Source of the DNA: a virus | Strand: one strand, 5' to 3' | Length of the DNA: 30,561 nucleotides | Virus record (IMG/VR): IMGVR_UViG_3300044970_002118 | Location: 1-30,561 of that record | Shown: positions 2,260-27,881 of the stretch, one piece after another | Numbering within the stretch: the first letter of the stretch is position 1 | Layout: every line of letters starts with the position of its first letter | Program-made: the position numbers and the translations under genes | The notes under the pieces: generated by a model | Seen by the model: the letters and a program-made list of their open reading frames with translations, nothing else | The model's database searches: none | What the model was told of the DNA's origin: nothing

Positions 2260-2289
2260 TTGACATTGGCATGCTACCGACGGTAGCTT
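2260..2289 (+). promoter_or_regulatory. Early promoter with operator for the plus-strand cassette
   Basis: A perfect -35 TTGACA (2260-2265) is followed 18 bases later by TAGCTT (2284-2289). The spacer holds the 13-bp palindrome CTACCGACGGTAG (2274-2286), extended by G and C to GCTACCGACGGTAGC. The last TAG of the operator is the first half of the -10. A repressor bound here would block RNA polymerase directly. The promoter drives the genes from 2327 rightward. Confidence 0.75.
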
Positions 2290-2326
2290 ATCCATCGTGC
2301 CCGGCAGGACCGGGCAGGAGATCACG

Positions 2327-2521
2327 ATGAAAGCCTTTTTTCCGCTGGACCCGCCCGACCCCAGCGTTCCGCTCGAATTCGAGGCCGATGCCGAACTGAC
2401 CGCGCGCATCCGCGCCGGCCTCGACGCGCACCTAGCCGAGGAAAACGACGCCCGGCCTCTGCATTTGCGCCGCGCCGCGCGACTGGACGCGATGCACAGA
2501 ACCGAAGGCGCTGCGGCATGA
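2327..2521 (+). CDS. Small hypothetical protein, first gene of the cassette
   Basis: The ATG at 2327 follows GGCAGGAGATCACG, a strong ribosome site, so the in-frame ATG at 2297 is rejected. The 64-residue product (MKAFFPLDPPDPSVPLEFEA...) is acidic at the front and Arg/Ala-rich at the back, with no recognisable domain and no membrane segment. It is the first gene after the operator-controlled promoter at 2260. It overlaps the next gene by ATGA, so the two are translationally coupled. Function unknown; position in a repressed early cassette suggests a host-takeover or defence-related role, but nothing in the protein itself shows that. Confidence 0.7.
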   Translation: MKAFFPLDPPDPSVPLEFEADAELTARIRAGLDAHLAEENDARPLHLRRAARLDAMHRTEGAAA

Positions 2522-2982
2522 TCCACGACAGCCATATGCCGACTGCGACCATCGCCGCGATCGACGCAGGCGAGCGCATCACTCGTCGCCGAGCCATTGT
2601 AGCCGTGCGCCACTGTGCATCTTTCGCCGAAACCTTCGCATGGGCAGGCCTCACCAAAGTCGCTCAGGGCTACGCCCTTGACGCGATGCGCATCGCGCAA
2701 CATGTCGCCCGCGCCGGTCGAGTTGCGGCCGTGAGCGGGCCAACCACCCTGACCGAAGCTGCGCGCCAAGCTGCCGAGCTGCTGACCGGCGCACCAGATG
2801 AAGATGTTGCCGCGGCCCTAGCGGCCCGATTGGTGAAGTTGGCGGACGAGCAAGACCGCGTGTTTGCGGAGTTGGCCACGCTGAACGCAACTTCGATGCA
2901 GGCCCTCGGCAGCGAAGGCGAAGGCGATGCGCTCTGCGCCCTTTGGGAAGCTGTTGAAACACTGACGGACGGGGCGAAATGA
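2518..2982 (+). CDS. Hypothetical helical protein, 154 aa
   Basis: The ATG at 2518 overlaps the previous stop (ATGA). The 154-residue product is alanine-rich and looks almost entirely helical, with a stretch rich in Ala, Arg and Glu from about residue 80 to 125 (AARQAAELL, AAALAARLVKLADEQDR). I see no signal peptide, metal-binding motif or catalytic signature and do not recognise the family. A second Met at codon 7 could also serve as start. It is coupled at both ends to its neighbours (ATGA at 2518 and 2979), so it is part of a four-gene translational unit, 2327-3496. Confidence 0.65.
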   Translation: MIHDSHMPTATIAAIDAGERITRRRAIVAVRHCASFAETFAWAGLTKVAQGYALDAMRIAQHVARAGRVAAVSGPTTLTEAARQAAELLTGAPDEDVAAALAARLVKLADEQDRVFAELATLNATSMQALGSEGEGDALCALWEAVETLTDGAK

Positions 2983-3332
2983 TGAAGCGGACCGTGTCTC
3001 AAGAAAAGTGGATTGAATTCCTGCTTTATGTGCTTTCTCCGACACAAGCCAACGGCGGATGGATAAGGCCAGAGCAGATTAGTCAAGACCTCGGGCTGGG
3101 CCGAGCCACAACCTACCGCTATATCGAACGAGCCGAGAAAGCAGGCTTAGCAATGCAGGTGAATATGAAGCGTGGCCCCGAGGTGGGGGCTGGCATTCGC
3201 ACCATGCTTATGACGATTCTCCGGCCCGCGGATTCTTTGCCGATAAGCGAAAGGCGAAAACCAAAGGCCGCAAGAGGCCGCAAGAATCAAAAAGGTCGAA
3301 TCGCTCAAACGCTTACGGACCGCGCCCCATGA
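2979..3332 (+). CDS. Winged-helix DNA-binding protein
   Basis: The start ATG at 2979 overlaps the previous stop; an adjacent Met at 2982 is equivalent. In the 117-residue product, residues 27-63 (WIRPEQISQDLGLGRATTYRYIERAEKAGLA) read as a helix-turn-helix with a recognition helix and the start of a wing. The C-terminus is a lysine/arginine-rich tail (KPKAARGRKNQKG). The gene is visibly lower in GC than the genes around it, which points to separate acquisition. A DNA-binding protein inside a small-gene cassette could autoregulate it, as Aca proteins do for anti-CRISPR operons. That parallel is only structural. Its targets are unknown. Confidence 0.65.
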   Translation: MMKRTVSQEKWIEFLLYVLSPTQANGGWIRPEQISQDLGLGRATTYRYIERAEKAGLAMQVNMKRGPEVGAGIRTMLMTILRPADSLPISERRKPKAARGRKNQKGRIAQTLTDRAP

Positions 3333-3496
3333 CCGCCAAGGCCATCCGCCGCCCGCGCTGGCTGCTGCCTCTGATCCAGGCCGCGCGCCGCGCCAACCCG
3401 AACCCCAGCTTTACAGCCCGCGACTTGGCCGGCTTCCTCGCCGTTTATGCGTTCTGGCTGCTGCTGGTCATCGGTGCCGTCTCCGGCGCCAAATAA
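3329..3496 (+). CDS. Small single-pass membrane protein, 55 aa
   Basis: The ATG at 3329 overlaps the stop of the winged-helix gene (ATGA) and the frame ends with TAA at 3494. The 55-residue product has a basic N-terminal half (RRPRWLLPLIQAARRANPNP) and one clear transmembrane helix near residues 34-52 (LAGFLAVYAFWLLLVIGAV). The positive-inside rule predicts the N-terminus in the cytoplasm. Function unknown. The coupling to its neighbour is the main support that it is a real gene. After it, CCGGG-type arms (3502-3516) can form a short hairpin before the next gene. Confidence 0.6.
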   Translation: MTAKAIRRPRWLLPLIQAARRANPNPSFTARDLAGFLAVYAFWLLLVIGAVSGAK

Positions 3497-3537
3497 GCCC
3501 GCCCGGAAAACCCGGGCCACAACTGAGGAAACACCCG

Positions 3538-3927
3538 ATGCTGCCACCGCCAAATCCCATACAGCCCTCGGCGCTCGCCGCGCCCATTATTGCGCCGACG
3601 ACTGCCGAGACATGGTCTGCCCCGTTCCGCGTTGCACCGCAGCTCGCCGCCGGCGGCGTGAATCCGTTTGCGAACGTACCCACTCGCATCGGCATGATGC
3701 TGACCGCGCCCAACGGGCAGCGAGTGCCGCCGGGTGCCGGCCTCGATCTTTATCTGATCGACAGCCAGGGAAATCTGAATAAGCTCGACATGACCCACAT
3801 AGCCGAGGGCGAGGGCGAGCCGTTTTACCTTGTGGTCGGCGACTACATGGCCTACAAACCGGCGTCGTCCGAGCCCTACGGCCTCGACGCGATCGGCTAC
3901 AGCAGCCAGGCGAACGAAGCGTCGTAA
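3538..3927 (+). CDS. Hypothetical protein, 129 aa
   Basis: The ATG at 3538 follows GAGGAAACACCCG, a good ribosome site. The N-terminal 45 residues are rich in Pro and Ala with no charged clusters. The rest has short predicted strands (TRIGMMLTAPNG, GLDLYLIDSQGN, PFYLVVGDYMAY) and looks like a small beta domain. I do not recognise a family. It has its own leader after the four-gene coupled unit, so it is translated independently but probably on the same transcript. Confidence 0.6.
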   Translation: MLPPPNPIQPSALAAPIIAPTTAETWSAPFRVAPQLAAGGVNPFANVPTRIGMMLTAPNGQRVPPGAGLDLYLIDSQGNLNKLDMTHIAEGEGEPFYLVVGDYMAYKPASSEPYGLDAIGYSSQANEAS

Positions 3928-4032
3928 CCCATCCCCAGGCCGACGCGGGGCCGCCAAGTCGTCACCCGTGCCGGGCTTCTCCAGCCCGTACCCCGCGCAG
4001 CCGACCGTGGCGGCTGTAGCGTAGACACCCGG

Positions 4033-4051
4033 CCCCCGACCGCGGCGGGGG
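4033..4051 (+). other. GC-rich hairpin in a 145-base leader
   Basis: Arms CCCCCG and CGGGGG flank the 7-base loop ACCGCGG between the genes ending at 3927 and starting at 4073. No T-run follows, so it is not a normal intrinsic terminator. It may shape the mRNA leader. I see no gene in 3928-4072. Confidence 0.35.
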
Positions 4052-4072
4052 CGTCCCTCTGAGAACGCACGC

Positions 4073-4549
4073 ATGCCCAACGAGAACCTGCTCCCCTTCG
4101 CCATCCATGGCCAACTGATCGAGATCGGCGACGACGACGATGGCCAGCCGCGGCTAGTCGTCCAGACCACGCGCGAGGCAATCAAGGCCTGCGACGCAAA
4201 CCTGCTGCTCAAGCCCGTCGTCGTGGCACTGCAGGGTGCGACGGAGCCGCCGGCGTTCATCGTGAACGCGGAAGATGGATCGGTCACGCGGGCCTATCCG
4301 ACGGTGTACGACGAGGTGATCGCCGAGCGCGTGCGCCAGGACCGGCAGTGGGGCGGTTCCGAGAACGACAATGCCAACACCTTTGCTGACTGGCTGAAGC
4401 TTATCGACAAACAGGCCAGCTATGCAGCACTTTCCCACTATCCCATAGCGCTCAATTACCGTGAGCGAATGGTGAAAATCGCCGCGCTGGCGGTGGCCGC
4501 GATTGAATCCCTAGACCGGACCATGGTGCGCGGCGCCGAGGCTGGGTGA
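4073..4549 (+). CDS. Phage protein with MazG-like C-terminal region
   Basis: In this 158-residue protein, residues 1-80 are an unknown small beta-type domain. From about residue 82 (VIAERVRQDRQWGGSEND...TFADWLKLI) to the C-terminal helix (RERMVKIAALAVAAIESLDR) it resembles a widespread phage segment related to MazG-type helical nucleotide pyrophosphohydrolases. The usual EExxE metal-binding pattern is not obvious, so activity is uncertain. If active it would hydrolyse (d)NTPs or alarmone-like nucleotides. The next gene overlaps its stop. No strong ribosome site precedes the ATG. Confidence 0.55.
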   Translation: MPNENLLPFAIHGQLIEIGDDDDGQPRLVVQTTREAIKACDANLLLKPVVVALQGATEPPAFIVNAEDGSVTRAYPTVYDEVIAERVRQDRQWGGSENDNANTFADWLKLIDKQASYAALSHYPIALNYRERMVKIAALAVAAIESLDRTMVRGAEAG

Positions 4550-4839
4550 TGCTGACTTCGTCTGCAAAGTACGATCGCCTACGTGCCGAGCACTCCGCTC
4601 TAATCGCGGCTTTTAAAGGCCTATTGGAAGAATGGAACAAGCTCGTCGGGCGGATCAATAATCTCGGCGGGGAAAGGTTCCTTGTAAGCGCGCGAATTGT
4701 CCATGGCGACCCATCGCTATCGGACGATGACCCGCGAAAGTTGTTATTGCTGTGCCACCCCGACCGCCACGACGGAAAACAGATGGCTGTCGAAATGACG
4801 CAGAAGCTGCTCGCGATCAAAGCGAATAAGCGGCCCTGA
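4549..4839 (+). CDS. J-domain-like small protein with HPD motif
   Basis: I use the ATG at 4549 (TGATG overlap with the previous gene, GAGG 7 bases upstream); a GTG at 4546 is the alternative. In the 96-residue product an N-terminal helical segment (RLRAEHSALIAAFKGLLEEWNKLV) precedes LLLLCHPDRHDGK, with His-Pro-Asp at residues 70-72, then a helix VEMTQKLLAIK. This helix - HPD - helix order is the hallmark of DnaJ-type J-domains, which stimulate the ATPase of host DnaK. The region is shorter than a full 70-residue J-domain and lies at the C-terminus, so it may be a degenerate or minimal version. A role in recruiting host DnaK is inference. Confidence 0.55.
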   Translation: MLTSSAKYDRLRAEHSALIAAFKGLLEEWNKLVGRINNLGGERFLVSARIVHGDPSLSDDDPRKLLLLCHPDRHDGKQMAVEMTQKLLAIKANKRP

Positions 4840-4878
4840 TTCACCCACCGCGGCGAAGCCGCACACCACGAGGCCAAT

Positions 4879-5139
4879 ATGTCCTACCCCAATATCCCGC
4901 TTACCCCCGTCGATTCCTCGCAGATTGCCGCCATCGGCTACGACGCCGACAGCCGGACCCTCGCGATCCGGTTCAAGGGCAAGGGCGACTCGCCCGGATC
5001 GCTCTACCACTACGACGACGTGTCGCCCGAGGACTGGGCTGCGTTCCGCGATGCCGAGTCGATGGGCTCGCACTTCTACCGCCACATCAAGCCGTATCCA
5101 GGCAAGTTCCGCTACGCGCGCATCGCCGAGGACGCCTAA
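4879..5139 (+). CDS. KTSC domain protein
   Basis: This 86-residue protein matches the KTSC pattern across its length: a VDSSQIAAIGYDADSRTLAIRFK strand pair near the front, a SLYHYDDVSPEDWAAFRDAES segment, then the closing MGSHFYRHIKPYPGKF. KTSC domains are small beta-rich modules, often fused to lysyl-tRNA synthetase or found alone in phages; their function is not established. A GAGG site lies upstream. The 39-base gap before it holds a small perfect hairpin (GCGGC-GAA-GCCGC, 4850-4862). The next gene begins two bases after its stop. Confidence 0.75.
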   Translation: MSYPNIPLTPVDSSQIAAIGYDADSRTLAIRFKGKGDSPGSLYHYDDVSPEDWAAFRDAESMGSHFYRHIKPYPGKFRYARIAEDA

Positions 5140-5141
5140 GT

Positions 5142-5417
5142 ATGGCCGACTACTATCTACCCGGGACGCCCGTCGTCCGCGTGTCCGAAACCCCGTCGGC
5201 GATCGGCTATGTCGTCGAAACGCACATGAAGCTCGGCGGCTCCGTGCGCTACGACATCATGACCCAGGACAGCGCGGGGCGACCATGGGTTAACGCCGTC
5301 GAGGCGTTCGAAGTCCGGCGCGCGAAGCCGGGCGAGTTGCCGAAGTTCAAGCTGCACCTGGGCAGCGACGATTCGGAGGCATCCGCCCCAACAGAGCCCG
5401 GGAGGGTTAACCATTGA
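5142..5417 (+). CDS. Hypothetical protein, 91 aa
   Basis: The ATG at 5142 is two bases after the KTSC stop. Residues 5-65 read as successive short strands (LPGTPVVRVSETPSAIGYVVETHM, SVRYDIMTQDSAGRPWVNAVEAFEVRRA), suggesting a small SH3-like or KOW-like beta barrel of the kind seen in small phage proteins. The tail is acidic and disordered (SDDSEASAPTEPG). I do not recognise the family. The tight spacing indicates co-translation with the KTSC gene. Confidence 0.55.
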   Translation: MADYYLPGTPVVRVSETPSAIGYVVETHMKLGGSVRYDIMTQDSAGRPWVNAVEAFEVRRAKPGELPKFKLHLGSDDSEASAPTEPGRVNH

Positions 5418-5473
5418 GAAATGGCCGGCCGCAGCCGTCAATCTAGACACTTATTCCAACCAGTGAGGGCGAT

Positions 5474-5815
5474 ATGAGCACACAAACAGCAACACGAATC
5501 CAGATCAACCGCGAGAATCTCCCGAAGGTCATCGCGAAGGCATTCGACCTGTCCAAGCCGCAGGGGATGGGAATTCTCCATTTCATGCCCGGCCCCATCC
5601 CAGAAGATGAGCTTAGCTGGATTTTAGCCAGTGCTGACGAAGCAAAGCTCACCGATCACAAGAAAATACGCCTCGATTATGTGCAAGGCCGAGCGGTCAA
5701 GCTGAGTATCCATTACGACGAAGGCAGCCAGCATTGGTATCTTGAAGGCGACAGATGGTACGACCACAGTCCGGCTGCATGGGAAGATTTGAAAGAATAC
5801 GCGCAATCGCTGTAA
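5474..5815 (+). CDS. Hypothetical protein, 113 aa, low GC
   Basis: The ATG at 5474 is preceded by GAGGGCGAT, a good ribosome site. The 113-residue product has a mixed alpha/beta look: an N-terminal helix (NRENLPKVIAKAFDLS), a strand (GMGILHFMPGP), a helix (PEDELSWILASADEAKL) and a C-terminal part rich in Tyr and Trp (HWYLEGDRWYDHSPAAWEDL). No family recognised. It uses more AT-rich codons than its neighbours, like the winged-helix gene at 2979, which fits a mosaic, recently acquired cassette. A terminator-like hairpin follows at 5892. Confidence 0.55.
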   Translation: MSTQTATRIQINRENLPKVIAKAFDLSKPQGMGILHFMPGPIPEDELSWILASADEAKLTDHKKIRLDYVQGRAVKLSIHYDEGSQHWYLEGDRWYDHSPAAWEDLKEYAQSL

Positions 5816-5891
5816 TCCCGACTTATCCCAAGGAGAGCGCCGAAGACACCGTAACGGCCAGCATGAGCGCCGCAACATGCAGAGAGCAAGG

Positions 5892-5918
5892 GACGCCACG
5901 CCCCATCGTGGCGTCTTT
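5892..5918 (+). terminator. Hairpin terminator after the 113-aa gene
   Basis: A perfect 9-bp stem GACGCCACG/CGTGGCGTC (5892-5900 and 5907-5915) with loop CCCCAT is followed by TTT. It lies about 75 bases after the stop at 5815. The T-run is short, so termination may be partial. Confidence 0.55.
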
Positions 5919-6087
5919 AGGGGGGCGGATTCGGAATGCGCAGGCTGATGCGTAGTGACGGGCGAGCGGTACGGAGTGGGTTGTTTCAGTCAGGTCCCAC
6001 ACGTCGGGAATCCAATCAAGCCGGATAGAAGTCGATAGCAGCACCGGCCCGAGTCCGACCCCCTAAAGAGCACAGCAGGAGATCGCG

Positions 6088-6102
6088 ATGAAAGACGAAT
6101 GA
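6088..6102 (+). other. Four-codon leader-like frame (MKDE)
   Basis: GCAGGAGATCGCG followed by ATGAAAGACGAATGA gives a strong ribosome site, a start, three codons and a stop. The site and start closely resemble those of the gene at 2327 (GGCAGGAGATCACG, ATGAAAG). A stable hairpin follows at 6120. It could be a leader peptide, or the 5' end of a gene whose body was lost. Confidence 0.35.
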
Positions 6103-6119
6103 CGCAACACATTGCAATG

Positions 6120-6150
6120 GGTGCCCGGTCCCAAGATGCCGGGCACCTTC
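6120..6150 (+). terminator. Terminator-like hairpin
   Basis: A perfect 9-bp stem GGTGCCCGG/CCGGGCACC (6120-6128 and 6139-6147) with loop TCCCAAGATG is followed by TTCT. It lies just after the MKDE leader frame and 130 bases before the gene at 6281, so it may act as a terminator or attenuator. Confidence 0.45.
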
Positions 6151-6574: not shown

Positions 6575-6578
6575 CCGA

Positions 6579-12259: not shown

Positions 12260-12511
12260 TTAACGTAGCACGGAGCCTACGCGGGCTTCCACGGGTAGCG
12301 CGGCGAACTGTGATGGGTGGAGCGTTCGGGTCGGTGTCGAATTGTTGTTCGCCCCGCGGCCGAAGATGACGCATCCGATGAAGCGGCCGAGTTCCCATGC
12401 GCCGACCTTAACCGTCTTTCCGGCCGGCATGCAGCCGGAGTAGTGCCAGTGTCGGCATGCGTACACGGCGGCGGCGTGGGTCGCCCAGTCCATACGCAGG
12501 TCAGAACTCAT
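12260..12511 (-). pseudogene. Truncated Mom-like DNA modification protein
   Basis: From the ATG at 12511 (overlapping the ParB-like gene by 11 bases) the frame gives 83 residues. They match the front part of Mom-family proteins, GNAT-fold enzymes that modify adenine in phage DNA: ACRHWHYSGCMPAGKTVKVGAWE followed by FIGCVIFGRGANNN. The usual continuation (an ELxRVAL-type segment and a C-terminal catalytic part) is missing: the sequence degrades at EARVGSVLR and stops. Only 64 bases remain before the terminase small subunit gene, so the missing half is not encoded nearby. An alternative start is the ATG at 12493. Family assignment is by pattern; loss of function is inferred. Confidence 0.55.
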
Positions 12512-14014: not shown

Positions 14015-14295
14015 GCCTGAATGGCTCCGTCGATGCGTCCGCGCACATGGATCGGCAGCTTAAGCACTTGGTCTTCGGTCATGAACCAAGTGAACAAATC
14101 GGCGACGGCCTCGCACAGGAAGACCCAGGCCAACATCGGGACAAACTTCGGCACGCCGACGCCGGCATCGTCGCCCTCTGGGATCATCCACGACGGCGCG
14201 CCGTACAGGCTGCCCTCATGGGTGAAGCCGAGAGCAATCGCCCGATCGCGTGTGATGTAAAAGCGGTCGCGGGGCTTAATCTCGTTGGAGTTCAA
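14011..14295 (-). CDS. Small conserved phage protein in the lysis cluster, TTG start
   Basis: I start it at TTG 14295: a GGGAGG site lies 6 bases upstream and TTGA overlaps the endolysin stop, like its neighbours' coupled starts. No ATG lies in a useful position. The 94-residue product (NEIKPRDRFYITRDRAIALGFTHEGSLYGAPSWMIP...) has a hydrophobic stretch at about 53-71 (KFVPMLAWVFLCEAVADLFTWFM) that could be a membrane-associated or buried helix. Similar proteins occur near lysis genes of phages of high-GC gammaproteobacteria, but I know of no assigned function. A holin-related role is possible and unproven. Confidence 0.65.
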   Translation of the reverse strand: MNSNEIKPRDRFYITRDRAIALGFTHEGSLYGAPSWMIPEGDDAGVGVPKFVPMLAWVFLCEAVADLFTWFMTEDQVLKLPIHVRGRIDGAIQA

Positions 14296-15275
14296 GCAAC
14301 ACCTCCCGCTCGGGCGACGCGCGCCTCGTCCTGCCGGCGCCCACATAGGCCGCGGCCATTGGGCGTACCGGCCCAAACCCGGCAGCTGCGCTCCAGCTGC
14401 CGAGCAACGCACTCGACATCCCGGGCGGGCAAGCATACGTCCCGGATGACCCGGCGCTCTTCGCGCCGGCTGCCCGCCATCCCCGGACCTCGGTTGTAGA
14501 CCTCGGAGGTCAGCGCGTCCTGCACACCGATCGGCGCCATGTCGAAGGCGCGGCCGTAGGCCTGTCGCGCGCGGGCTCGGTAGACGGGGATGCTGCTGGA
14601 ATCCAGCACGCGGATTGCGTCGGCCCAGCTGACGATGATGTCGCGGTAGCGGGGCAGGATGGCGCGCGCCTCGGTGCCGGTGAAGCCCGCGGTCGTAGCC
14701 AGCCGCGGGGCGGCCGGGTGCGTGGCCCAGTCGCGCCGGATCGTGTCCGGGTGCTGGTGACCGCCGTCGTAGCCGATGCCCCAGGTGACGCCCGAGGCGC
14801 CGCCCGGCCAGATGGGCCGCTGCAGGTCCGCGACGTATCGGCCCTTGCCGCCGACCTCCCATCGCACGATCAGGTCGCGCGCGCCGTCCTGAGCGTTCGC
14901 CGCGCCCGAGAACGTGCCGAAGGCGATCAGCAGCAGCACGAAGATCGTGATCCATTCGAGCCGGTCCTTGACGATCAGCCACAGCGCGCTGCGGTTGCCG
15001 TCGCGCGCGGCCGAGTGCAGTTCGCGCTCTTCGTCGGCGCTCAGGTCGTGCCAGTACTCGGCTTTCCATCGCCACGCGAGGTAGCCGAGCAGGGCAGTCG
15101 GCACCAAGCCGACGAGGTAATCGACCAGGATCGGGCCGATCTCGATGACGGGAAGGCCGCGCGCCCAGGTCACGAACCATGCGCCCGCCATTCCCGCAAG
15201 CAATAGCGGCAGGATGGCGGTCAGTTCGATATGGGTGCGTAGCCAGCGGGTTGCAGCGGTCAGCTTGTCGCGCAT
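14292..15275 (-). CDS. Membrane-anchored endolysin, apparent holin-endolysin fusion
   Basis: The ATG at 15275 has GAGGA 8 bases upstream, so the longer frame to 15329 is rejected. The 327-residue protein has hydrophobic helices near 17-37, 43-68 and 108-124. The third ends GAANAQD, like a signal-peptide or SAR segment. A lysozyme-like domain follows: Glu140 in IVRWEVGG, then WPGGASGVTWGIGYDGGH (Asp170), resembling the E...D/T layout of phage muramidases. With the N-terminus inside, three helices place the enzyme in the periplasm. The first two helices with a charged tail look like a class II holin. No start codon is visible at the junction, so it is one polypeptide. Confidence 0.72.
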   Translation of the reverse strand: MRDKLTAATRWLRTHIELTAILPLLLAGMAGAWFVTWARGLPVIEIGPILVDYLVGLVPTALLGYLAWRWKAEYWHDLSADEERELHSAARDGNRSALWLIVKDRLEWITIFVLLLIAFGTFSGAANAQDGARDLIVRWEVGGKGRYVADLQRPIWPGGASGVTWGIGYDGGHQHPDTIRRDWATHPAAPRLATTAGFTGTEARAILPRYRDIIVSWADAIRVLDSSSIPVYRARARQAYGRAFDMAPIGVQDALTSEVYNRGPGMAGSRREERRVIRDVCLPARDVECVARQLERSCRVWAGTPNGRGLCGRRQDEARVARAGGVA

Positions 15276-15294: not shown

Positions 15295-15307
15295 CTACGG
15301 AAGGTAG
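15295..15307 (-). promoter_or_regulatory. Operator upstream of the lysis operon
   Basis: On the reverse strand it reads CTACCTTCCGTAG, one mismatch from dyad symmetry with the other four operators. It lies 20 bases upstream of the endolysin ATG. No good -35 precedes it, which would fit an activator-dependent late promoter that is also repressed in the lysogen. Confidence 0.6.
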
Positions 15308-15325: not shown

Positions 15326-15694
15326 TCACGGTGGGACCATTGCCGCGCGCCCCTGAACCCCTGCAGCGCCGAGGATTTTTCGCACCATCCGCGGGCTTAT
15401 CCGGTTTTCGCGCGCGATCTTACTGATTGCTTCGCGGGCGAGGTACGCGGTAACGATGGCGTCATTGCGTGCACGAATCAGCGCGGTGCGCTCGGCGGGA
15501 ACGTAGATCTCCACGTCGGGGAAGGCCTCGCACAGCTTGCGCGCGGCATCGACGCCGATCGCCACGCACAGCGGATGCTCATCGCGAACCGACACCGGCA
15601 CCCGGAGCATGTCCCCACCGTAGACCCGCGTTAGGCCGATCAGAGCCGGCATGCCGATAACGGCGATGACTTGATCGATCTCGCTCGCGCTCAC
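15326..15694 (-). CDS. Mor-family transcription activator
   Basis: The start is GTG 15694 in a GTGA overlap with the 35-aa gene. The 122-residue protein follows the Mor/C pattern of Mu-like phages: a dimerisation region, the strand VEIYVPAERT (61-70), then RARNDAIVTAYLAREAISKIARENRISPRMVRKIL (74-108), a helix-turn-helix. Mor-type proteins activate middle or late promoters that lack a proper -35. It is the last gene of the leftward early operon, directly before the lysis and head genes, so it is the best candidate for their activator. The shared elements at 2223 and 15330 are candidate binding sites. Confidence 0.78.
   Translation of the reverse strand: MSASEIDQVIAVIGMPALIGLTRVYGGDMLRVPVSVRDEHPLCVAIGVDAARKLCEAFPDVEIYVPAERTALIRARNDAIVTAYLAREAISKIARENRISPRMVRKILGAAGVQGRAAMVPP
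15330..15345 (-). promoter_or_regulatory. Late-type upstream element, copy 1
   Basis: The plus strand reads GGTGGGACCATTGCCG, a 15/16 match to 2223-2238. It lies at the 3' end of the Mor-like gene, 55-70 bases upstream of the endolysin start. On the reverse strand GGTCCC and GGGACC arms nine bases apart (15317-15337) form a dyad at this copy only. Confidence 0.4.
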
Positions 15695-18304: not shown

Positions 18305-18598
18305 TCATGCCGCGCTCTGATCGGCGCGCACTTCGTAGCCCAGCTCCTGAGCCGTCAGGTCGCCGTAGAGGTCCGGGCGGATGGTGCGCAGATCGACGAT
18401 GCCGTGCGACAATCGGACAAAGTCGCGGCATTTCTCGGCGGGAACCGGGAGACCAGGGGCGTAAAAGTGCCGGACGCGCTCGCCGGTATTATAGCCGAGG
18501 GCCTTGGCCGCATTCGTGATCCCGCCCATGGCCGTGATCGCGGCGCGGATCAGCCGACTGCGTTTATCGTCGGCGGGAATGTGCATCTTCGGGGGCAT
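18305..18598 (-). CDS. Cro/YdaS-like DNA-binding regulator
   Basis: I start at ATG 18598, with AGGA five bases upstream, giving 97 residues. The helix-turn-helix is RAAITAMGGITNAAKALGYNTGERVRHFY (about 18-46). The part LPVPAEKCRDFVRLSHGIVDLRTIRPDLYGDL (about 50-80) is the typical tail of YdaS/Cro-like phage regulators. It is the first gene of the leftward early operon, divergent from the CI-like gene, and its promoter (18633-18661) overlaps an operator. As in lambda, it would repress from the shared operators during lytic growth. Which operator it prefers is unknown. Confidence 0.78.
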   Translation of the reverse strand: MPPKMHIPADDKRSRLIRAAITAMGGITNAAKALGYNTGERVRHFYAPGLPVPAEKCRDFVRLSHGIVDLRTIRPDLYGDLTAQELGYEVRADQSAA

Positions 18599-18605: not shown

Positions 18606-18616
18606 CTACCTTGTAG
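18606..18616. promoter_or_regulatory. Auxiliary operator-like site in the immunity region
   Basis: CTACCTTGTAG carries a full CTACC half-site and an imperfect GTAG half-site at shorter spacing. It begins exactly 21 bases (two helical turns) before the full operator at 18627, which would allow two dimers to bind side by side. Confidence 0.4.
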
Positions 18617-18626: not shown

Positions 18627-18639
18627 CTACCGATGGTAG
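18627..18639. promoter_or_regulatory. Operator between cro and cI
   Basis: CTACCGATGGTAG is a perfect 5-3-5 palindrome. It covers the -10 of the leftward cro promoter and lies just before the possible cI start at 18640. It is identical to the operator at 27866. A further CTACC half-site is at 18662-18666. Confidence 0.75.
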
Positions 18640-18661
18640 ATGACCGGCGCCGGAATTTCAA
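18633..18661 (-). promoter_or_regulatory. Leftward early promoter for cro
   Basis: On the reverse strand TTGAAA (18661-18656) is followed after 17 bases by TACCAT (18638-18633). Transcription would start near 18626, 28 bases before the cro ATG. The -10 lies within the operator. Confidence 0.65.
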
Positions 18662-18675: not shown

Positions 18676-19131
18676 ATGCGGATAAACAGGGATGTTTCGG
18701 CCGAGGAGTTCGCGCAGCGACTCCAGAAAGCCGCCCACGCGCGCGGCCTGACCTCGGGCCGCAGCCGGTCGGGCGTGGATGTCGTCGCCCTGGCCGCGGC
18801 GATCGACGCCAGTTACGAAATGGCTCGCCGCTATGCCAAGGGGCTCGCGACGTCGAAGCCCGAGGCGATCCGGCTGCTTGCGCGCTGGCTCAGGGTTTCC
18901 CCGGCATGGCTCGCCTACGGCGAGGGCGGCATGGACGCAAAAAGCGACGTGGACGTTGTTTTGCTTGAATCGTGTATCAAAGCCGTCACGGACGCGCAAC
19001 GCACCTCCGGGGTAGCTCTGAGCAACGAGAGCCTTGCACACCTGGTTTCCGGCCTATACCTGGAGGCGCGCGACGGAAGTTTGCCGTCTGCGGCCAGTGT
19101 GGCGGCCACCCTAAAAGCCCTGAACAGGTGA
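18676..19131 (+). CDS. CI-like repressor without peptidase domain
   Basis: I prefer ATG 18676, giving 151 residues (MRINRDVSAEEFAQRLQKAA); ATG 18640, right after the operator, would add 12 residues. Neither has a ribosome site, so a leaderless message like lambda cI is possible. Residues about 30-83 (VDVVALAAAIDASYEMARRYAKGLATSKPEAIRLLARWLRVSPAWLAYGEGGM) are a CI-type helix-turn-helix domain. The C-terminal 65 residues are helical and lack the Ser/Lys dyad of S24 peptidases, so RecA-stimulated self-cleavage is not expected. It is divergent from the Cro-like gene and likely to bind the CTACC-type operators. Confidence 0.75.
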   Translation: MRINRDVSAEEFAQRLQKAAHARGLTSGRSRSGVDVVALAAAIDASYEMARRYAKGLATSKPEAIRLLARWLRVSPAWLAYGEGGMDAKSDVDVVLLESCIKAVTDAQRTSGVALSNESLAHLVSGLYLEARDGSLPSAASVAATLKALNR

Positions 19132-19308: not shown

Positions 19309-19336
19309 GGTAGCCCCTAAATCCCGGGGTGCTACC
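19309..19336 (+). terminator. Hairpin after the repressor operon
   Basis: Arms GGTAGCCCC and GGGGTGCTACC pair with one bulged T; the loop is about eight bases. A T-rich stretch follows after a few bases. The outer arms are also CTACC-type operator half-sites: CTACC at 19332 begins 21 bases before the operator at 19353. The element may serve as terminator, auxiliary operator, or both. Confidence 0.45.
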
Positions 19337-19339: not shown

Positions 19340-19368
19340 TTGCATTTCTTTTCTACCGGCGGTAGTAT
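19340..19368 (+). promoter_or_regulatory. Promoter with operator for the recombination operon
   Basis: TTGCAT (19340-19345) and TAGTAT (19363-19368) are 17 bases apart. CTACCGGCGGTAG (19353-19365) fills the spacer, and its last TAG begins the -10. This drives recT and the following genes. The open frame starting at 19340 is ruled out because it lies upstream of the transcription start. Confidence 0.75.
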
Positions 19369-19411
19369 AAATCCGTCCCGGGGCATGGTGCCTCGGCATG
19401 CGGAGATGCAA

Positions 19412-20188
19412 ATGAACCAGCTTGTGACCGCGCAGCAGAGCGCCAACGCGCTCGTGCCGCGCAACATCAGCGAGGCTCTGGAACTGGCCAACGTCATGTC
19501 GGCCGCCAACCTCATCCCCGACCATCTGCGAGGCAAGCCCGGCGACTGCCTGCTCATCGTGATGCAGGCCCAGCGTTGGGGCATGGACGCGGTGAGTGTC
19601 GCCCAGAGCACCAGCGTCGTGCACGGCAAGCTATGTTACGAGGGTAAGCTCGTCGCCGCTGCGCTGTACGCCATGGGCGCCCTCGACGGCCGCCTGCACT
19701 ACGACATCCAGGGCAGCGGCCAGAACGCCAGCATAACAGTCACCGGCACGCCGAAGGGCGGCAAAGGCCCCCAAACCGTCACCGGCTCGGTCAAGGATTG
19801 GCGCACCTACGGGAAGGACAAGCAGGGCAACCGAATCGACAACGCATGGGACAAGATGCCCGAGGACATGCTTGTATACCGAGGAACGCGCCAATGGGCG
19901 CGCCGCTACGCGCCCGAGGCGCTGCTGGGTGTATACACCCCAGACGAAATTGAGTCCGATGTCATTGACGTGGTCGCTACTCCGGTGACCGATTCGCGCC
20001 CGGCATACCCTGAGGCCGACTTCGAAGCTAACCTGCCGAAGTGGCAGAAGGTCATCGCGGACGGCAAGCGCACCGCCGACGACATCATCGCGCTGGCCGA
20101 GACGAAGGGCCAGCTAAGCGACGACCAGCGCAAGAAGATCCGAGCCGCTGGCAATGCCAAGCCCGCCACCGGGGAGAGCGCGGCATGA
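19412..20188 (+). CDS. recT: RecT-family single-strand annealing protein
   Basis: The ATG at 19412 has GGAG six bases upstream; Met codons at 19385 and 19406 are weaker. In the 258-residue protein, SEALELANVMSAANLIPDHLRGKPGDCLLIVMQAQRWGMD (about 16-55) and HGKLCYEGKLVAAALYAMG (about 67-85) are the usual front half. DMLVYRGTRQWARRYAPEALLGVYTPDEIESDV (about 149-181) is the signature of RecT-type annealing proteins. It would pair complementary strands at ends resected by the exonuclease made from the next gene. The two genes overlap by ATGA, which couples their synthesis. The C-terminal 60 residues look like a flexible, charged interaction tail. Confidence 0.82.
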   Translation: MNQLVTAQQSANALVPRNISEALELANVMSAANLIPDHLRGKPGDCLLIVMQAQRWGMDAVSVAQSTSVVHGKLCYEGKLVAAALYAMGALDGRLHYDIQGSGQNASITVTGTPKGGKGPQTVTGSVKDWRTYGKDKQGNRIDNAWDKMPEDMLVYRGTRQWARRYAPEALLGVYTPDEIESDVIDVVATPVTDSRPAYPEADFEANLPKWQKVIADGKRTADDIIALAETKGQLSDDQRKKIRAAGNAKPATGESAA

Positions 20189-21906: not shown

Positions 21907-21908
21907 CC

Positions 21909-23212: not shown

Positions 23213-23215
23213 GCT

Positions 23216-23737: not shown

Positions 23738-23747
23738 GGGCCTGACC

Positions 23748-24743
23748 ATGTATTTTCGCAACCTGACGTTTTTCCGCTTCCCCTCCGCTACCGCCGATTC
23801 CATCCGCGAGGCCGCCGCGCGCGATCCGCGTCACGACGCGCAGGCGATGCCCGATCAGTACTCCTTGCAGGCGCTGCTGTCCGAATTGGCAGCCAAGCCC
23901 TGCGGTTCCATGGAGCTGTCGAGTCGTGGCTGGGTCTCGCCCTTCGGCGGCGATGCCGATGCCATGTTCCAGCAAATCGGTGACTGCATCCTGCTGACGC
24001 TCGGCGGCGAGGACAAGATACTGCCCGGATCCGCGGTCAAGGCGGCCGTGCAGAAACGCATCGCCGAGATTGAGCAGCGCGAAGGCCGTAAGCTTGGCGG
24101 CCGTGCCCGCAAGGCGCTGCGCGACGATATCGTGCACGACCTGCTGCCGCGCGCGCTGGTCAAACCGTTCCGCATCACCGGCTACATCGACCTGCAGGAA
24201 TGCTTCCTGGCGGTGGACACCGGCAGTCGCAAGGCGGGCGAGGGGTTCGTATCTCACCTGCGGCACACGCTGGGATCGTTCCCCGCGCTGCCTCTGAATG
24301 CCGAAGCACCGCCTCGCGCAATTTTGACCGAATGGCTCACGACCGGCGAACTGCCCCAGGGCAACTTCGGCCCTGGCTCACTGTATCTCGACGACTCGGC
24401 GACGCTGCAGGATGGGCGCGACGACGGCGGCGTGGTGAAACTCGACCGCCTGGAGTTGGGGGCAGAAGAGATCCGGCAACACATTGAAACCGGCATGCAG
24501 TGCACGCGCCTCGGCCTGACGCTGGGCGACACGTTGGACGACCGCCTATCGTTCACCTTCGACGAGGACTTGGTCGTGCGTAAGCTCAAGTTCCTCGACG
24601 CGGCCCTGGAATCGCTCGACACCGGCGACCGCGACGACTTCCGCGCCGAACTAGATGCCCGGTTCGCGCTGATGTCGGGCGAAGTGCGCCAGTTGTTCCG
24701 CACGCTGGCCGGGCCGTTCAAGTTCTCGACGGCGGAGGGCTGA
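23748..24743 (+). CDS. rdgC: Recombination-associated protein RdgC
   Basis: The 331-residue product matches RdgC throughout: MYFRNLTFFRF at the start, CGSMELSSRGWVSPFG (about 52-67), GDCILLTLGGEDKILPGSAVKAAVQKRIAEIE (about 78-109), GYIDLQECFLAVDTGSRKAGEGFVSHLRHTLG (about 145-176) and a C-terminal LDRLSFTFDEDLVVRKLKFLD. RdgC is a ring-shaped DNA-binding protein that limits RecA filament formation and is normally a bacterial chromosomal gene of gamma- and betaproteobacteria. Here it lies in the phage recombination operon, where it could favour RecT-type over RecA-type recombination. It is slightly longer than E. coli RdgC (about 303). Confidence 0.92.
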   Translation: MYFRNLTFFRFPSATADSIREAAARDPRHDAQAMPDQYSLQALLSELAAKPCGSMELSSRGWVSPFGGDADAMFQQIGDCILLTLGGEDKILPGSAVKAAVQKRIAEIEQREGRKLGGRARKALRDDIVHDLLPRALVKPFRITGYIDLQECFLAVDTGSRKAGEGFVSHLRHTLGSFPALPLNAEAPPRAILTEWLTTGELPQGNFGPGSLYLDDSATLQDGRDDGGVVKLDRLELGAEEIRQHIETGMQCTRLGLTLGDTLDDRLSFTFDEDLVVRKLKFLDAALESLDTGDRDDFRAELDARFALMSGEVRQLFRTLAGPFKFSTAEG

Positions 24744-24745
24744 CC

Positions 24746-25102
24746 ATGCACGCGATCAATTGGGTGTCCCGTGCCATTTTTGCCTCGCTGCTCTGGTTTG
24801 GCTTCGTCCATGACGTGGGCGGGGCACGCAACATCGCGCTGTTTTTCGTGTGGTTTGGCGCGGTCCTTAGCCCCTTGATGCTGACCAAGGGCGCCGTCAT
24901 GGATCGCGCAAACCGCGACCCGGCCTCGGCCATTGAGGAGCACGGCGGCAACGTGTGGCGTATCGCTGTCGTGCTGTTTTTGGCTTGGCATGGCGCCTTT
25001 GCTTCCGCGATTGCTTGGGCGCTGTTCGCTGCGATCTTTGTGGTAAGCGAAGACCTCGCGAACCGAGTGCGCGAAGGGCGTGGAGAACTGCCATGGGCAT
25101 GA
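24746..25102 (+). CDS. Multi-pass membrane protein, 118 aa
   Basis: The ATG at 24746 lies two bases after the RdgC stop, with GGAGGG just upstream. The 118-residue product has about four hydrophobic helices: INWVSRAIFASLLWFGFVHDV, NIALFFVWFGAVLSPLMLT, VWRIAVVLFLAWHGAFAS and AIAWALFAAIFVVSEDL. A charged loop separates the two pairs, and the C-terminus (NRVREGRGELPWA) is basic and probably cytoplasmic. No family recognised. A membrane protein in a recombination operon is unexpected; exclusion or membrane-modifying roles are possible but unsupported. Confidence 0.65.
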   Translation: MHAINWVSRAIFASLLWFGFVHDVGGARNIALFFVWFGAVLSPLMLTKGAVMDRANRDPASAIEEHGGNVWRIAVVLFLAWHGAFASAIAWALFAAIFVVSEDLANRVREGRGELPWA

Positions 25103-25290
25103 CCATCGCCGAGGCACAGACCCGCATCCAAGCGATATTGAGTCAGGTCGAGCGCGATCAGAAAATGGTTATCAGCGAAATCAATCTGATGCAGCACGAA
25201 AGCCGCGGTTTAGACGGCGCCCCGAGGTTCGTGCGCACGGTGCGGCTCACACCGTCACCGGGGCCGGGCTCGTGGGCAGGGGGGGGCTGA
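25093..25290 (+). CDS. Hypothetical protein, 65 aa
   Basis: I use the ATG at 25093, which has GGAG seven bases upstream; the ATG at 25099 (ATGA overlap with the previous stop) is the alternative. The first 38 residues are one charged helix (TIAEAQTRIQAILSQVERDQKMVISEINLMQHESRG). The rest is a Pro/Gly-rich tail read through a run of eight Gs (25279-25286) just before the stop. No family recognised. Because the run is prone to slippage or sequencing error, the C-terminus may be misread. Confidence 0.55.
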   Translation: MGMTIAEAQTRIQAILSQVERDQKMVISEINLMQHESRGLDGAPRFVRTVRLTPSPGPGSWAGGG

Positions 25291-25292
25291 CC

Positions 25293-25435
25293 GTGCGCCT
25301 CCATCCCGACATCATCCGCATGCATATCCAGGACACTACCGCCGCCGCCGGCACCGTTTCGGCATCGGCTCGATTATCGGCGCGGTGCTGGTCGCTTCCT
25401 CGCCGCTGTACTTCGCATTGAGGGCCGCGTCGTGA
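25293..25435 (+). pseudogene. Small membrane-protein gene, apparently frameshifted
   Basis: A GTG at 25293 opens a frame (MRLHPDIIRMHIQDTTAAAG...) that loses protein character after about 20 codons. Another frame then encodes a sensible membrane segment, HRFGIGSIIGAVLVASSPLYFALRAAS. It ends at TGA 25433-25435, exactly in a GTGA overlap with the next gene, but has no start codon of its own back to a stop at 25211. A one-base shift within the GCC repeats near 25343-25352 would join the two into one 47-residue protein. Either the gene is broken or the sequence has an indel. Confidence 0.4.
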
Positions 25436-25680
25436 AACAAGCCGCCAAGCTCACCGCGCGCGCCCTCGTGCACACGATCCAGCCGGCGATACACGCCGGC
25501 TTGACCATCGGCGCGCTGGTCGCGTTCGACCTGACCGCGATCAGTTGGTTGTGGCCCTTGAGCCTAACGGTGTATCCCATCCTCGCCATCGCCGCGATCG
25601 TCGCGCTCGGCATCTACGCCGCGCCAGACGCTCCGGCCACCGAGCCCGGCGGCAGTCCGGGCACCGAGAACAATCCATGA
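25432..25680 (+). CDS. Small two-helix membrane protein, 82 aa
   Basis: The start is GTG 25432 with GAGGG seven bases upstream. The 82-residue product has a short basic front (MKQAAKLTARALVHTIQ), then hydrophobic helices AIHAGLTIGALVAFDLTAISWLW and LSLTVYPILAIAAIVALGIYAA, and a disordered Pro/Glu-rich end (PDAPATEPGGSPGTEN). No family recognised. It overlaps the methyltransferase gene by ATGA, so both are probably made from the same message in a coupled way. Confidence 0.6.
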   Translation: MKQAAKLTARALVHTIQPAIHAGLTIGALVAFDLTAISWLWPLSLTVYPILAIAAIVALGIYAAPDAPATEPGGSPGTENNP

Positions 25681-27761
25681 CAGCAGCACAAAACGCATTT
25701 CACATGCCCATGACGGGCACCAGCCGCTTACGCCCGGGCGAGATCGTTGTCGATTTGTTCGCTGGCGGGGGCGGCGCGTCCGAGGCGCTTCGCCAAGCAC
25801 TCGGGCGTGATCCTGACATCGCGATCAATCACGACGCCGACGCGATCGGCATGCACGCGGCCAACCACCCCTACACGCGCCATCACTGCGAGGACGTGTG
25901 GCATGCCGACCCCGTGGCTGAGGTCGCAGGTCGCCCGGTGGGTTGGCTGCATGCCTCGCCCGATTGCACCCATTTCAGCCAAGCGAAGGGCGGCCAGCCA
26001 CGCGACCGCGCCACACGCTCGCTGTCGTGGGTCGTGCTCAAGTGGGCCGGCAGCCTGCACCGCGCCGGCCGCGCGCCGCGGATCATCAGCCTTGAGAACG
26101 TCCGCCAAATCCTCCACTGGGGGCCTCTGATCGCGAAGCGCGACCCAGCGACCGGGCGCGTGCTGCGCCGCGATGGCGCCGGCGGTTGGACGGTTGCCGC
26201 GCGCGGTGAGCGCGTCCCGGTGCGCCAGCAATGGCTGATTCCCGACAAGCGCCACGCCGGCCGCACTTGGCGCGCCTTCGTCGCTGCGCTGAGCGGCATG
26301 GGCTACGCCGTCGAATGGCGGCGGTTGGTCGCCAGCGATTACGGCGCGGGCACCACGCGCGAACGCCTGTTCATGATCGCGCGCCGCGATGGCGCGCCCA
26401 TCGTGTGGCCGGCGCCAACGCATGGCCGAAAATCGGCAACTTGCGCAAATCGTCAAGTTGGCCTGCTGCCGGCTGTGTCCGCCGCCGACTGCATTGATTG
26501 GTCGATCCCATGCCGCACGATTTTCGACAAATCGGCAACTTGCGCAAATCGTCAAGTTGGCCTGCTGCCGGCTGTGTCCGCCGCCGACTGCATTGATTGG
26601 TCGATCCCATGCCGCACGATTTTCGACCGGCCCCGGCCGCTGGCTGAGAAGACCATGCGCCGAATCGCGCGCGGCGTGCATCGGTTCGTGCTCGGCGCGG
26701 CCGAGCCCTTTATCGTGGGCGTCGGCGGCCGCATAGGCGACACCTTAGAGCGGCCCGCCTCCGGCCCTCTGCAGACCATCACCGCCAAGGCTGATGCGGC
26801 CGTGTGCGCGCCCGTGCTGGTGCAGACCGCTTACGGCGAAGGCCAGGGCGCGACCGCGCGCCGAGGAAGCGGCGCACACGATGCCGCCGCGCCGATCGGC
26901 ACTATTCCCGCCGGTGGTGGGTCGTTCGCCTTATGCGCCCCGCACTTGGTCAAATTCCGCGGCGAGAGCGGCGGCGTGCCCGCAGACGAACCCCTGCCCA
27001 CCATTACCAGCGGTGCCGGTGCGGCGCGGCCGGCGGGCGCCGCGCATGCGATGGGCTTGGTCTCCGCGCACCTGTGCGCGATGGCGCAGAACGTCGTTGG
27101 CATTGATGCACGTGACCCGCTGCCGACCGTGTTAGCCGGCGCGACGCGCTTCGGCGTGACCACCGCATTCCTTGAACAAGCCAACGGCGGCAACTACACC
27201 GGCGCCGGCAGCGACCTACGCAACCCACAGCCGACCATCTGCGCACAAGGCGGCCTGCAGCGGCTTGTGGCGGCGCACATGCAACCGATGCAGCAGCACA
27301 GCCCGGGCGCCGCCGCGCGCGATCCGGTCGGTTCAATCCTTGCCGGCGGCACGCACCATGCGGTCGTCGAGTGCCAGCTGAGCCCGGAAGCCGAGGCCGG
27401 CGCGCTGCGCGTGGCGGCATTCCTGATGCGCTATTACGGCGAAGGCGGTCAGCACGGCGACCTGCGCGAACCGCTCGCCACCATCACCACCAAGGACCGT
27501 TTGGCCCTGGTCACGGTGCACATCCGCGGCGTGCCCTACGTGATCGTCGATATCGGCCTGCGCATGCTGGAACCGCACGAACTGTACCGCGCCCAAGGGT
27601 TCCCGCCCGAATACATCATCGACCGGACCGCCGACGGCCGCCGTTTGCCGAAAGCAGCGCAGGTAAAGATGGTGGGCAACAGCGTAAGCCCGCCGCCGCT
27701 GCGAGCGATCGCTGAGGCGAATCTTGATCCCGTCGTTAATGCGGGGCGGATCGCAGCGTGA
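25677..27761 (+). CDS. DNA cytosine-C5 methyltransferase
   Basis: The ATG at 25677 overlaps the previous stop. The 694-residue enzyme has motif I VVDLFAGGGGASEAL (24-38), motif IV SPDCTHFSQAKGG with the catalytic Cys97, motif VI ENVR (140-143), motif VIII region TTRERLF and motif X GNSVSPPPLR near the end. It would transfer a methyl group from S-adenosylmethionine to cytosine C5, most likely to shield phage DNA from host restriction. Residues about 252-317 contain a perfect 33-residue tandem duplication. Residues about 360-610, before motif IX/X, hold some seven degenerate copies of a dPLPTItag... motif, probably the target-recognition part. No partner nuclease is present. Confidence 0.88.
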   Translation: MTAAQNAFHMPMTGTSRLRPGEIVVDLFAGGGGASEALRQALGRDPDIAINHDADAIGMHAANHPYTRHHCEDVWHADPVAEVAGRPVGWLHASPDCTHFSQAKGGQPRDRATRSLSWVVLKWAGSLHRAGRAPRIISLENVRQILHWGPLIAKRDPATGRVLRRDGAGGWTVAARGERVPVRQQWLIPDKRHAGRTWRAFVAALSGMGYAVEWRRLVASDYGAGTTRERLFMIARRDGAPIVWPAPTHGRKSATCANRQVGLLPAVSAADCIDWSIPCRTIFDKSATCANRQVGLLPAVSAADCIDWSIPCRTIFDRPRPLAEKTMRRIARGVHRFVLGAAEPFIVGVGGRIGDTLERPASGPLQTITAKADAAVCAPVLVQTAYGEGQGATARRGSGAHDAAAPIGTIPAGGGSFALCAPHLVKFRGESGGVPADEPLPTITSGAGAARPAGAAHAMGLVSAHLCAMAQNVVGIDARDPLPTVLAGATRFGVTTAFLEQANGGNYTGAGSDLRNPQPTICAQGGLQRLVAAHMQPMQQHSPGAAARDPVGSILAGGTHHAVVECQLSPEAEAGALRVAAFLMRYYGEGGQHGDLREPLATITTKDRLALVTVHIRGVPYVIVDIGLRMLEPHELYRAQGFPPEYIIDRTADGRRLPKAAQVKMVGNSVSPPPLRAIAEANLDPVVNAGRIAA
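26430..26627 (+). repeat. Perfect 99-bp tandem duplication in the C5 methyltransferase
   Basis: Two identical 99-base units lie head to tail at 26430-26528 and 26529-26627. The length is a multiple of three, so the frame is kept and 33 residues (from KSATCANRQVGLLP to CRTIFD) are repeated. Each unit contains arms CAACTTG and CAAGTTG ten bases apart. Identity without a single change indicates a recent event or an assembly artefact. Confidence 0.95.
26745..27510 (+). repeat. Degenerate internal repeats in the C5 methyltransferase
   Basis: The translation shows a recurring pattern: GPLQTITAKADAA, APIGTIPAGGGSF, EPLPTITSGAGAA, DPLPTVLAGATRF, NPQPTICAQGGLQ, DPVGSILAGGTHH, EPLATITTKDRLA. Each copy is followed by a short hydrophobic strand. 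Spacing is about 30-45 residues. The copies are divergent in DNA, so they are old and probably structural. Confidence 0.6.
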
Positions 27762-27851
27762 CGGCCGAGAGATACCGCCCTTCTCACCCAAAGGCGACCA
27801 GCAAGTAAAAACCGCCCGTCCAATCCGCGCAGTTTTCAGCCATTAGGGGGC

Positions 27852-27881
27852 TTGCGCTCCGTATACTACCGATGGTAGTAT
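27852..27881 (+). promoter_or_regulatory. Promoter with operator for the adenine-methyltransferase operon
   Basis: TTGCGC (27852-27857) and TAGTAT (27876-27881) are 18 bases apart. The operator CTACCGATGGTAG (27866-27878) overlaps the -10, the same design as at 2260 and 19340. It lies in the 147-base gap after the C5 methyltransferase. Confidence 0.7.

Follow-up and report, generated by a model that had tools for sequence, protein, structure and literature searches.

Which protein reads the 13-bp palindrome CTACC-N3-GGTAG that recurs at separate places in the virus record IMGVR_UViG_3300044970_002118 of IMG/VR, and which genes might it govern? The window, by which we mean the whole analysed stretch of 30,561 bases, holds five such sites, one of them between divergent cI-like and cro-like genes. 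We propose that the palindrome, in the general form CTAC-N5-GTAG and here mostly as CTACC-N3-GGTAG, very likely serves as operator for the CI-like repressor that the phage itself encodes, and that its sites make up a promoter-embedded repressor regulon. The original prediction likewise had a repressor regulon whose operator is part of the promoters, and this is still the best explanation; what has been established is where the sites lie and that operator and CI recognition helix go together across phages.

A second IMG/VR record, IMGVR_UViG_3300042312_000318 (54,646 bases; hereafter G001), matches the window at >99.9%, and its cI and cro-like proteins are 100% identical to those of the window. 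Both G001 ends lie in the same ~99-base tandem repeat, and no exact terminal repeat was found at them. Because the window runs straight across this junction and bridges the G001 ends, the phage has a circular map of ~54.5 kb, its length being uncertain by about one repeat unit. In the window, a ~99-base (33-residue) tandem duplication lies at 26427-26627, inside a C5 cytosine methyltransferase gene, and G001 breaks there.

Operator sites and their promoters

Perfect palindromes at 2274, 18627, 19353 and 27866 and a one-mismatch site at 15295 were found where the original prediction had placed them; no strand is assigned to any of the sites. Operator 1 (18627..18639, CTACCGATGGTAG) separates the divergent cI-like and cro-like genes. 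Operator 2 (19353..19365, CTACCGGCGGTAG) lies within the promoter TTGCAT-N17-TAGTAT 5' of a RecT-like gene, and operator 3 (27866..27878, again CTACCGATGGTAG) within TTGCGC-N18-TAGTAT, 30 bases 5' of a methyltransferase start codon. Operator 4 (2274..2286, CTACCGACGGTAG) is part of TTGACA-N18-TAGCTT, the promoter of an accessory operon that is flanked by late genes, and operator 5 (15295..15307, CTACGGAAGGTAG) is located between a Mor-like gene and a lysis-region gene. The latter site departs by one mismatch from CTACC-N3-GGTAG, yet it matches CTAC-N5-GTAG perfectly. Not a single base of the five sites is coding, in a window whose intergenic share is ~6% by a rough gene map.

In the 54,517 bases of the whole phage, the perfect pattern CTACC-N3-GGTAG occurs four times, with no perfect sites beyond those of the window; among 200 second-order Markov shuffles, 198 contained none and two contained one. 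Allowing one mismatch adds 15295, a coding-sequence match at 12286, which is outside the best 20 sites of the family matrix described below, and a promoter site at G001 48444. The motif is thus not equally common in coding sequence, in line with the original prediction. Seven matches with at most one mismatch were counted in G001 for the true pattern, versus two for the reversed pattern as a control. Other bare palindromes with GC-rich arms are equally common or commoner in this phage (CGCGC, 8; TCGCG and AGCGC, 4 each), so that CTACC does not stand out by number of matches; what distinguishes it is its position and the evidence from the family.

A blind matrix prediction was made with 17 positions derived from 75 operators of other phages, the window's phage being left out. 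Scanning the 54,517 phage bases, this matrix ranked the five reported sites first to fifth in the complete phage, namely 27866 (score 19.7), 18627 (16.0), 19353 (8.3), 2274 (7.7) and 15295 (7.3). The next ranks went to a site in coding sequence (2.7) and to G001 48444 (2.4). Best scores in 30 shuffled genomes had a mean of 4.4 and reached 13.4 at the highest.

At four of the six sites (2274, 19353, 27866 and G001 48444), the operator lies between the -35 and -10 elements, and its last TAG opens the -10. Measured from TTGACA (2274), TTGCAT (19353) and TTGCGC (27866), the operator begins 8, 7 and 8 bases past the -35, with -35/-10 spacings of 18, 17 and 18, respectively, which agrees with the 7-8 bases and the TAG overlap described earlier for these three promoters. 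Of the five intergenic sites of the window, these three have -35 and -10 elements in register; 18627 and 15295 are without a good -35 in that register. The sole match of a promoter scanner in the 18627 region, where 0.3 are expected in shuffles, is a candidate cro promoter on the minus strand (18633..18661, TTGAAA-N17-TACCAT, 9/12 matches), whose -10 falls inside operator 1.

The sixth site (G001 48444-48456, outside the window, one mismatch) is embedded in the promoter TTGACA-N18-TAGCAT and has 28 of 29 bases in common with the promoter-operator at 2274; it rests on this promoter match, its matrix score being low. It lies 30 bases 5' of a minus-strand gene (47676-48413), the first in a same-strand run of open reading frames (ORFs) that ends in a Dda-like helicase gene. 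Just upstream of this promoter-operator, on the opposite strand, are three tRNA genes (Arg, Phe and Tyr; G001 48546-48794, L016 8546-8794).

Extra CTACC half-sites had been noticed 21 bases before two of the operators. Both are real and exactly spaced, one at 18606..18610 on the plus strand before operator 1 and one at 19332 before the site at 19353, and the simulated chance of this recurrence is 0.001, a rough and post hoc figure. The second, however, sits in the 3' arm of a hairpin (19309..19336, plus strand; z -2.0, with 11 of 200 shuffles folding as well) that follows the cI unit and precedes a T-rich stretch, and which is probably the terminator of this unit. Since the 19332 half-site is within the hairpin arm, we give the pair little weight.

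The CI-like repressor and its operator in other phages

The CI-like repressor (18676..19131, plus strand) is predicted to comprise 151 amino acids (aa), with an XRE-type helix-turn-helix (HTH) domain, whose recognition helix reads SYEMARRYAKG, and a small C-terminal domain of three helices. It matches transcription-regulator families of PHROG (best, 1.3e-9), and its score against Pfam HTH_3 is 13.2 bits, below the cut-off of 23. An AlphaFold2 model (predicted local distance difference test, 83; predicted template modeling [TM] score, 0.52; 7 sequences) places the HTH domain at residues 7-81 and three helices at 94-149. The HTH domain of the model matches structures of P22 c2 (3jxb, TM 0.82-0.84 by target length) and 434 Cro. 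A Foldseek search with the whole model returned weak E-values, none at or below 0.001, and a PDB sequence search gave chance matches only. Of the features of lambda- and P22-type CI repressors, the HTH domain and the divergent cro-like gene with an operator in between are present, and the S24 autopeptidase domain was not found, having no match in Pfam or NCBIfam. Without this peptidase, relief of repression would have to be indirect.

In named phages, most of the nearest relatives of this protein are CIs whose helix reads YEMARRY or YEM[V/I]RRY. Single-sequence searches of IMG/VR with the CI-like or the Cro-like protein retrieved only the same phage, no relative of the CI-like protein was confirmed in bacterial genomes, where the stricter helix pattern YEMARRYA had no match either, and tblastn of the CI-like protein on plasmids detected two Legionella adelaidensis records with 31-38% identity.

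We searched IMG/VR for DNA encoding YEMARRY-x-x-G and obtained at least 119 loci, one of them from the window's own phage. In 112 of the 119 analysed, to which the following counts refer, CTAC-N5-GTAG is present 60-500 bases before the helix codons. When only non-redundant N-domains were kept and the window's phage was omitted, 57 of 64 had the site within 300 bases 5', compared with a mean of 0.18 and a maximum of 3 in first-order Markov shuffles. Out of 256 four-base arms with the same gap, CTAC came first with these 57 and the runner-up reached 7. An 80-locus subset gave similar proportions (76/80 with the site; 44/48 non-redundant). The comparison of operators among relatives with the same repressor helix, proposed alongside the original prediction, thus bears it out.

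Named phages showed the same association. CTAC-N5-GTAG was found 5' of cI in all eight CIs with YEM[A/V/I]RRY, encoded by Haemophilus phage Aaphi23, Moraxella phages Mcat4, Mcat23 and Mcat28, Providencia phages PSTCR8lys and PSTRCR_117lys, Acinetobacter phage AbTJ and Escherichia phage Phi06_2987, versus none of four CIs with other helices, those of PhiR30_1 and ST160 (with one helix in common), ST101-KPC2phi6.1 and MD-2021a. Distant one-mismatch matches occur in two of these four. Likewise, no CTAC-N5-GTAG was detected 5' of cI in Mcat6, whose N-domain has FPKMIRRY. The eight phages share with the window the same or nearly the same helix and the 13-bp geometry of the operator 5' of cI, and three of them have an extra copy 3' of cI in the stretch scanned. 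They differ in that their full-length CIs are longer than the 151-aa protein of the window (many IMG/VR relatives have 157-168 aa), in that their operators are AT-rich inside, and in that relatives' sites stay near cI. No experimental study of YEM[A/V/I]RRY-CI operators was found in the open-access literature, and the operator and helix strings occurred there in one unrelated paper only.

The promoter-embedded arrangement recurs in relatives. In locus L151, whose CI is 44-45% identical to that of the window, a TTGCAT-17-TAGTAT promoter-operator 3' of cI accompanies a TTGCGG-17-TAGCTT site 5' of cI, so that a cI-trailing TTGCAT-N17-TAGTAT is common to both phages; L157 has promoter-operators TTGCAG-17-TAGTAT and TTGCAT-17-TAGCAT. 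For relatives' operators, the register of the window scored best of 29 offsets (6.97 versus 6.39), a margin too small to be relied on as support.

Many enterobacterial-type loci, among them L026, L031, L033 and L034, have their second operator within the reading frame of cI itself, at about -111 to -144 relative to the helix codons. There, CTACCTATGGTAG encodes part of LLPMVE with an in-frame ATG, and the repressor may start inside its own operator.

Competing explanations

Several observations weigh against CI control of all these sites. Three of the five window sites score below 13.4, the top of the 30 shuffled genomes. Neither direction offers a -35 at 15295, and at 18627 there is none in the register of the other sites; in that register, both places reach at most two of six bases. 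Seven YEMARRY loci lack the operator; one of them, L128, is without upstream DNA and hence not judgeable, which leaves six of 118 (L039, L075, L096, L097, L127 and L130), and the helix alone is thus not sufficient. Among the nine loci nearest to the window CI apart from its own phage (L149-L157), the upstream site is perfect in L151, L155, L156 and L157, present with one mismatch only in L150, L152 and L153, and absent from L149 and L154. Across all 79 loci in the search behind these nine, with the window's phage set aside, 72 have a perfect site. The helix is thus a good predictor of the operator in most loci and a poorer one for the nearest kin of the window CI, where operators seem to drift. 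Finally, overlapping sites may be bound by a YdaS-like Cro, which has been reported for prophage CP-933P (PMC8630535).

Some details of these loci are of note in themselves. L039 has a one-mismatch site, L154 ends just past the HTH, and in L157 the ORF diverges from the family beyond the helix. Flanking cI in L153 are CTACCCGAAGTTG, in two copies, and a single CTACTTGTCGTTG. In L075 and L096, YEMARRY is followed by VGSGKP, CTAC sites are missing, and AACAGTTGT-like sequences 5' of cI possibly represent a different operator.

One alternative holds that only 18627 and 19353 are true operators and that the remote sites are functionless promoter-like matches. It draws on the layout in relatives and on the modest matrix scores of 2274 and 15295. 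Twenty-six relatives' contigs of 39-76 kb, chosen for length and perhaps including fragments and some near-copies, contain 78 sites; of the 75 listed, from 25 contigs (the three of G032 are outside this list), 73 lie within ~3 kb of another in their own cluster, the exceptions being G025 29139 and G022 17871. Outside the cI neighbourhood, 1.04 Mb of 102 non-redundant relatives hold 16 sites, that is, 0.154 per 10 kb versus a crude random rate of 0.153. In the window's phage, however, the remote site 27866 has the genome's best score, the remote sites are intergenic, three of four have promoter elements in register, and G001 48444 repeats the promoter-operator of 2274 in 28 of 29 bases. We therefore regard functionless remote sites as unlikely.

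Another possibility is that the Cro-like protein is the main binder, with CI secondary, or that the sites are common to both. This YdaS-like protein (18305..18598, minus strand; PF15943 at 27.8 bits, just under the cut-off of 30) is encoded divergently from cI, adjoining operator 1, by the first gene of the DnaD-like/RusA side. In CP-933P, footprints of YdaS and of the CI analogue PaaR2 overlap, and competition for the same sites has been suggested (PMC8630535). Evidence to the contrary comes from four Suso-like siphophages (Suso, StM171, QH16 and Xanthomonas phage HXX_Dennis), which possess a 38-43% identical Cro-like protein in the same gene order and have no cI annotated at that place; as three of the four Cro-like proteins are the same, they amount to about two cases. 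CTAC-N5-GTAG is absent from the Suso-like stretches scanned (40.2, 34.4, 30.6 and 30.6 kb of 43.5-44.7 kb), and one-mismatch matches to CTACC-N3-GGTAG (QH16, 1; Suso, 2; Dennis, 2; StM171, 0) are all in annotated coding regions. Moreover, the divergent Cro-like proteins of relatives vary widely, whereas the CI helix is invariant. The original prediction had left the choice between a CI-like and a Cro-like binder. The site tracks the CI helix and is missing from the scanned stretches of the Suso-like phages with their related Cro-like protein, which points to the CI-like protein, and a leading role of Cro appears quite improbable.

Binding by a host regulator (e.g., SOS or another global repressor) to a palindrome borrowed by the phage is very hard to credit, since the motif accompanies cI in records from phages of Escherichia, Providencia, Moraxella, Acinetobacter and Haemophilus/Actinobacillus, whereas none occurs 5' of four other-helix CIs, a pattern that a host factor would not explain.

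A dispersed regulon and its relation to known systems

With CI as the binder, a repressor dimer would contact the palindrome through the YEMARRY recognition helix. In promoters where the operator separates the -35 from the -10 and contributes the first half of the latter, binding would exclude RNA polymerase. A single CI would thereby silence the predicted cro/replication, RecT recombination and methyltransferase operons and the accessory operon between late genes, as well as the early-type operon with the Dda-like helicase behind the sixth site, and it would regulate its own promoter. Of the genes behind the sites, a RecT-like annealing protein gene (19406..20188, plus strand) is the first of the recombination operon; a gene for a DUF4942-containing DNA methyltransferase (27909..29471, plus strand) lies behind operator 3, with a Dam-like gene next to it on the downstream side; and the first three ORFs of the accessory operon extend over 2297..3332 on the plus strand, the third with a winged-HTH match below the cut-off. 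An RdgC-like protein (PF04381, 4e-83) is also encoded by the phage, at 23748-24743.

The lysis-region site at 15295 is the least certain of the sites. Directly upstream of it is the gene of a Mor-like late transcription activator (15326..15694, minus strand; phrog_836, 1e-21; PF08765 at 23.3 bits, just under the cut-off of 24.9). Promoters of Mor-type activators are often without a -35. Considering the adjacent Mor-like gene and the missing -35, CI could block an activator-dependent late promoter at this place and perhaps directly repress lysis and late genes. The gene downstream (14292..15275, minus strand) is an endolysin gene by position only: an endolysin is annotated at the equivalent place in Suso, QH16, Dennis and StM171, and the product has no Pfam or PHROG family match. 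By eye, the N-terminal part of this product contains hydrophobic segments, and the protein resembles a lysozyme.

The repressor is the one sign of a possible temperate life. A partial integrase match (G001 41484-41675) covers positions 106-170 of 172 of PF00589, no intact integrase was found, and searches with one resolvase family and one of ParA type were negative. This C-terminal fragment, the last third of the domain, belongs to a segment (G001 41217-42802, L016 1217-2802) between a tail gene and the helicase gene that also includes a tRNA-Met gene and, by translation, a rhomboid-like ORF; the segment may be a fragment of bacterial DNA or the remains of an integration module.

As a whole, the system is of a known type, the repressor and operator of a lambda-like immunity region, here with a peptidase-less CI, an operator family apparently undescribed in the open-access literature, and an unusually dispersed regulon. 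In Escherichia coli, the RacR/YdaS pair of the Rac prophage and PaaR2/YdaS of CP-933P likewise combine a repressor divergent from a Cro protein (YdaS there, a candidate YdaS-like protein here) with inverted-repeat immunity operators, and an additional regulated promoter besides the immunity region has been reported for CP-933P (PMC8630535). The operators are not those of the window, however: RacR of E. coli K-12 has another helix and the repeats GCCTAA/TTAGGC, and the inverted repeats of PaaR2, whose helix differs as well, have the consensus GTTTAGTAA in the CP-933P report (PMC8630535).

The unusually spread regulon is what sets the window's phage apart from its relatives, four of its six sites being ~3.4, 9.2, 14 and 16 kb from cI. 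As reported, phage P1 C1 represses lytic genes, including a late activator, from 22 operators dispersed over the genome (PMC8546580), and a mycobacteriophage immunity repressor acts at stoperators spread over the genome (PMC9283540). P1 and the window's phage have in common operators at many separate promoters, 22 in P1 and six candidate sites here, four of them >3 kb from cI. The P1 operator, however, is a 17-bp asymmetric sequence, in contrast to the symmetric 13-bp palindrome here. Stoperators are similarly asymmetric and stop elongation, whereas the window sites are palindromic and mostly built into promoters.

Like the window, the Suso-like phages have their Cro-like, DnaD-like and RusA genes in this order, opposed recombination genes accompanied by a single-stranded DNA-binding protein gene, and the lysis region. 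A Mor-like activator is annotated in three of the four, and an accessory cassette opposite to the late-gene strand occurs in both whose stretch covers it. The differences are that no cI is annotated between their recombination and Cro-like genes and that CTAC-N5-GTAG is missing from the scanned stretches; Suso has been called temperate on account of a repressor gene (PMC9022531). The idea that Suso-like phages already had such a regulon, based on a different operator, found no backing in QH16, the one genome scanned for it: no palindrome recurs there, and one promoter-like sequence occurs at two places. The latter, ATAAGCAACCTGATACA, is found in QH16 before the Cro-like gene and an FtsK-like gene (L017 19779-19961 and 30458-30586), perhaps as a common promoter of another kind.

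It is possible, if somewhat short of probable, that in this Suso-like lineage, with no annotated cI in the four known members examined, a phage with a peptidase-less CI and its operator wired them into remote operons by setting the operator between the two promoter elements (-35 and -10), in part through duplication of a promoter-operator module (2274 and G001 48444, 28/29 bases), and thereby built a P1-like genome-wide regulon from a lambda-like operator. The phage also offers a compact case of repressor control reaching beyond the immunity region into the remaining genome. Beyond this phage, the tie of the helix YEMARRY to the operator CTAC-N5-GTAG across phages of several bacterial groups would make the targets of many unstudied CIs predictable from sequence.

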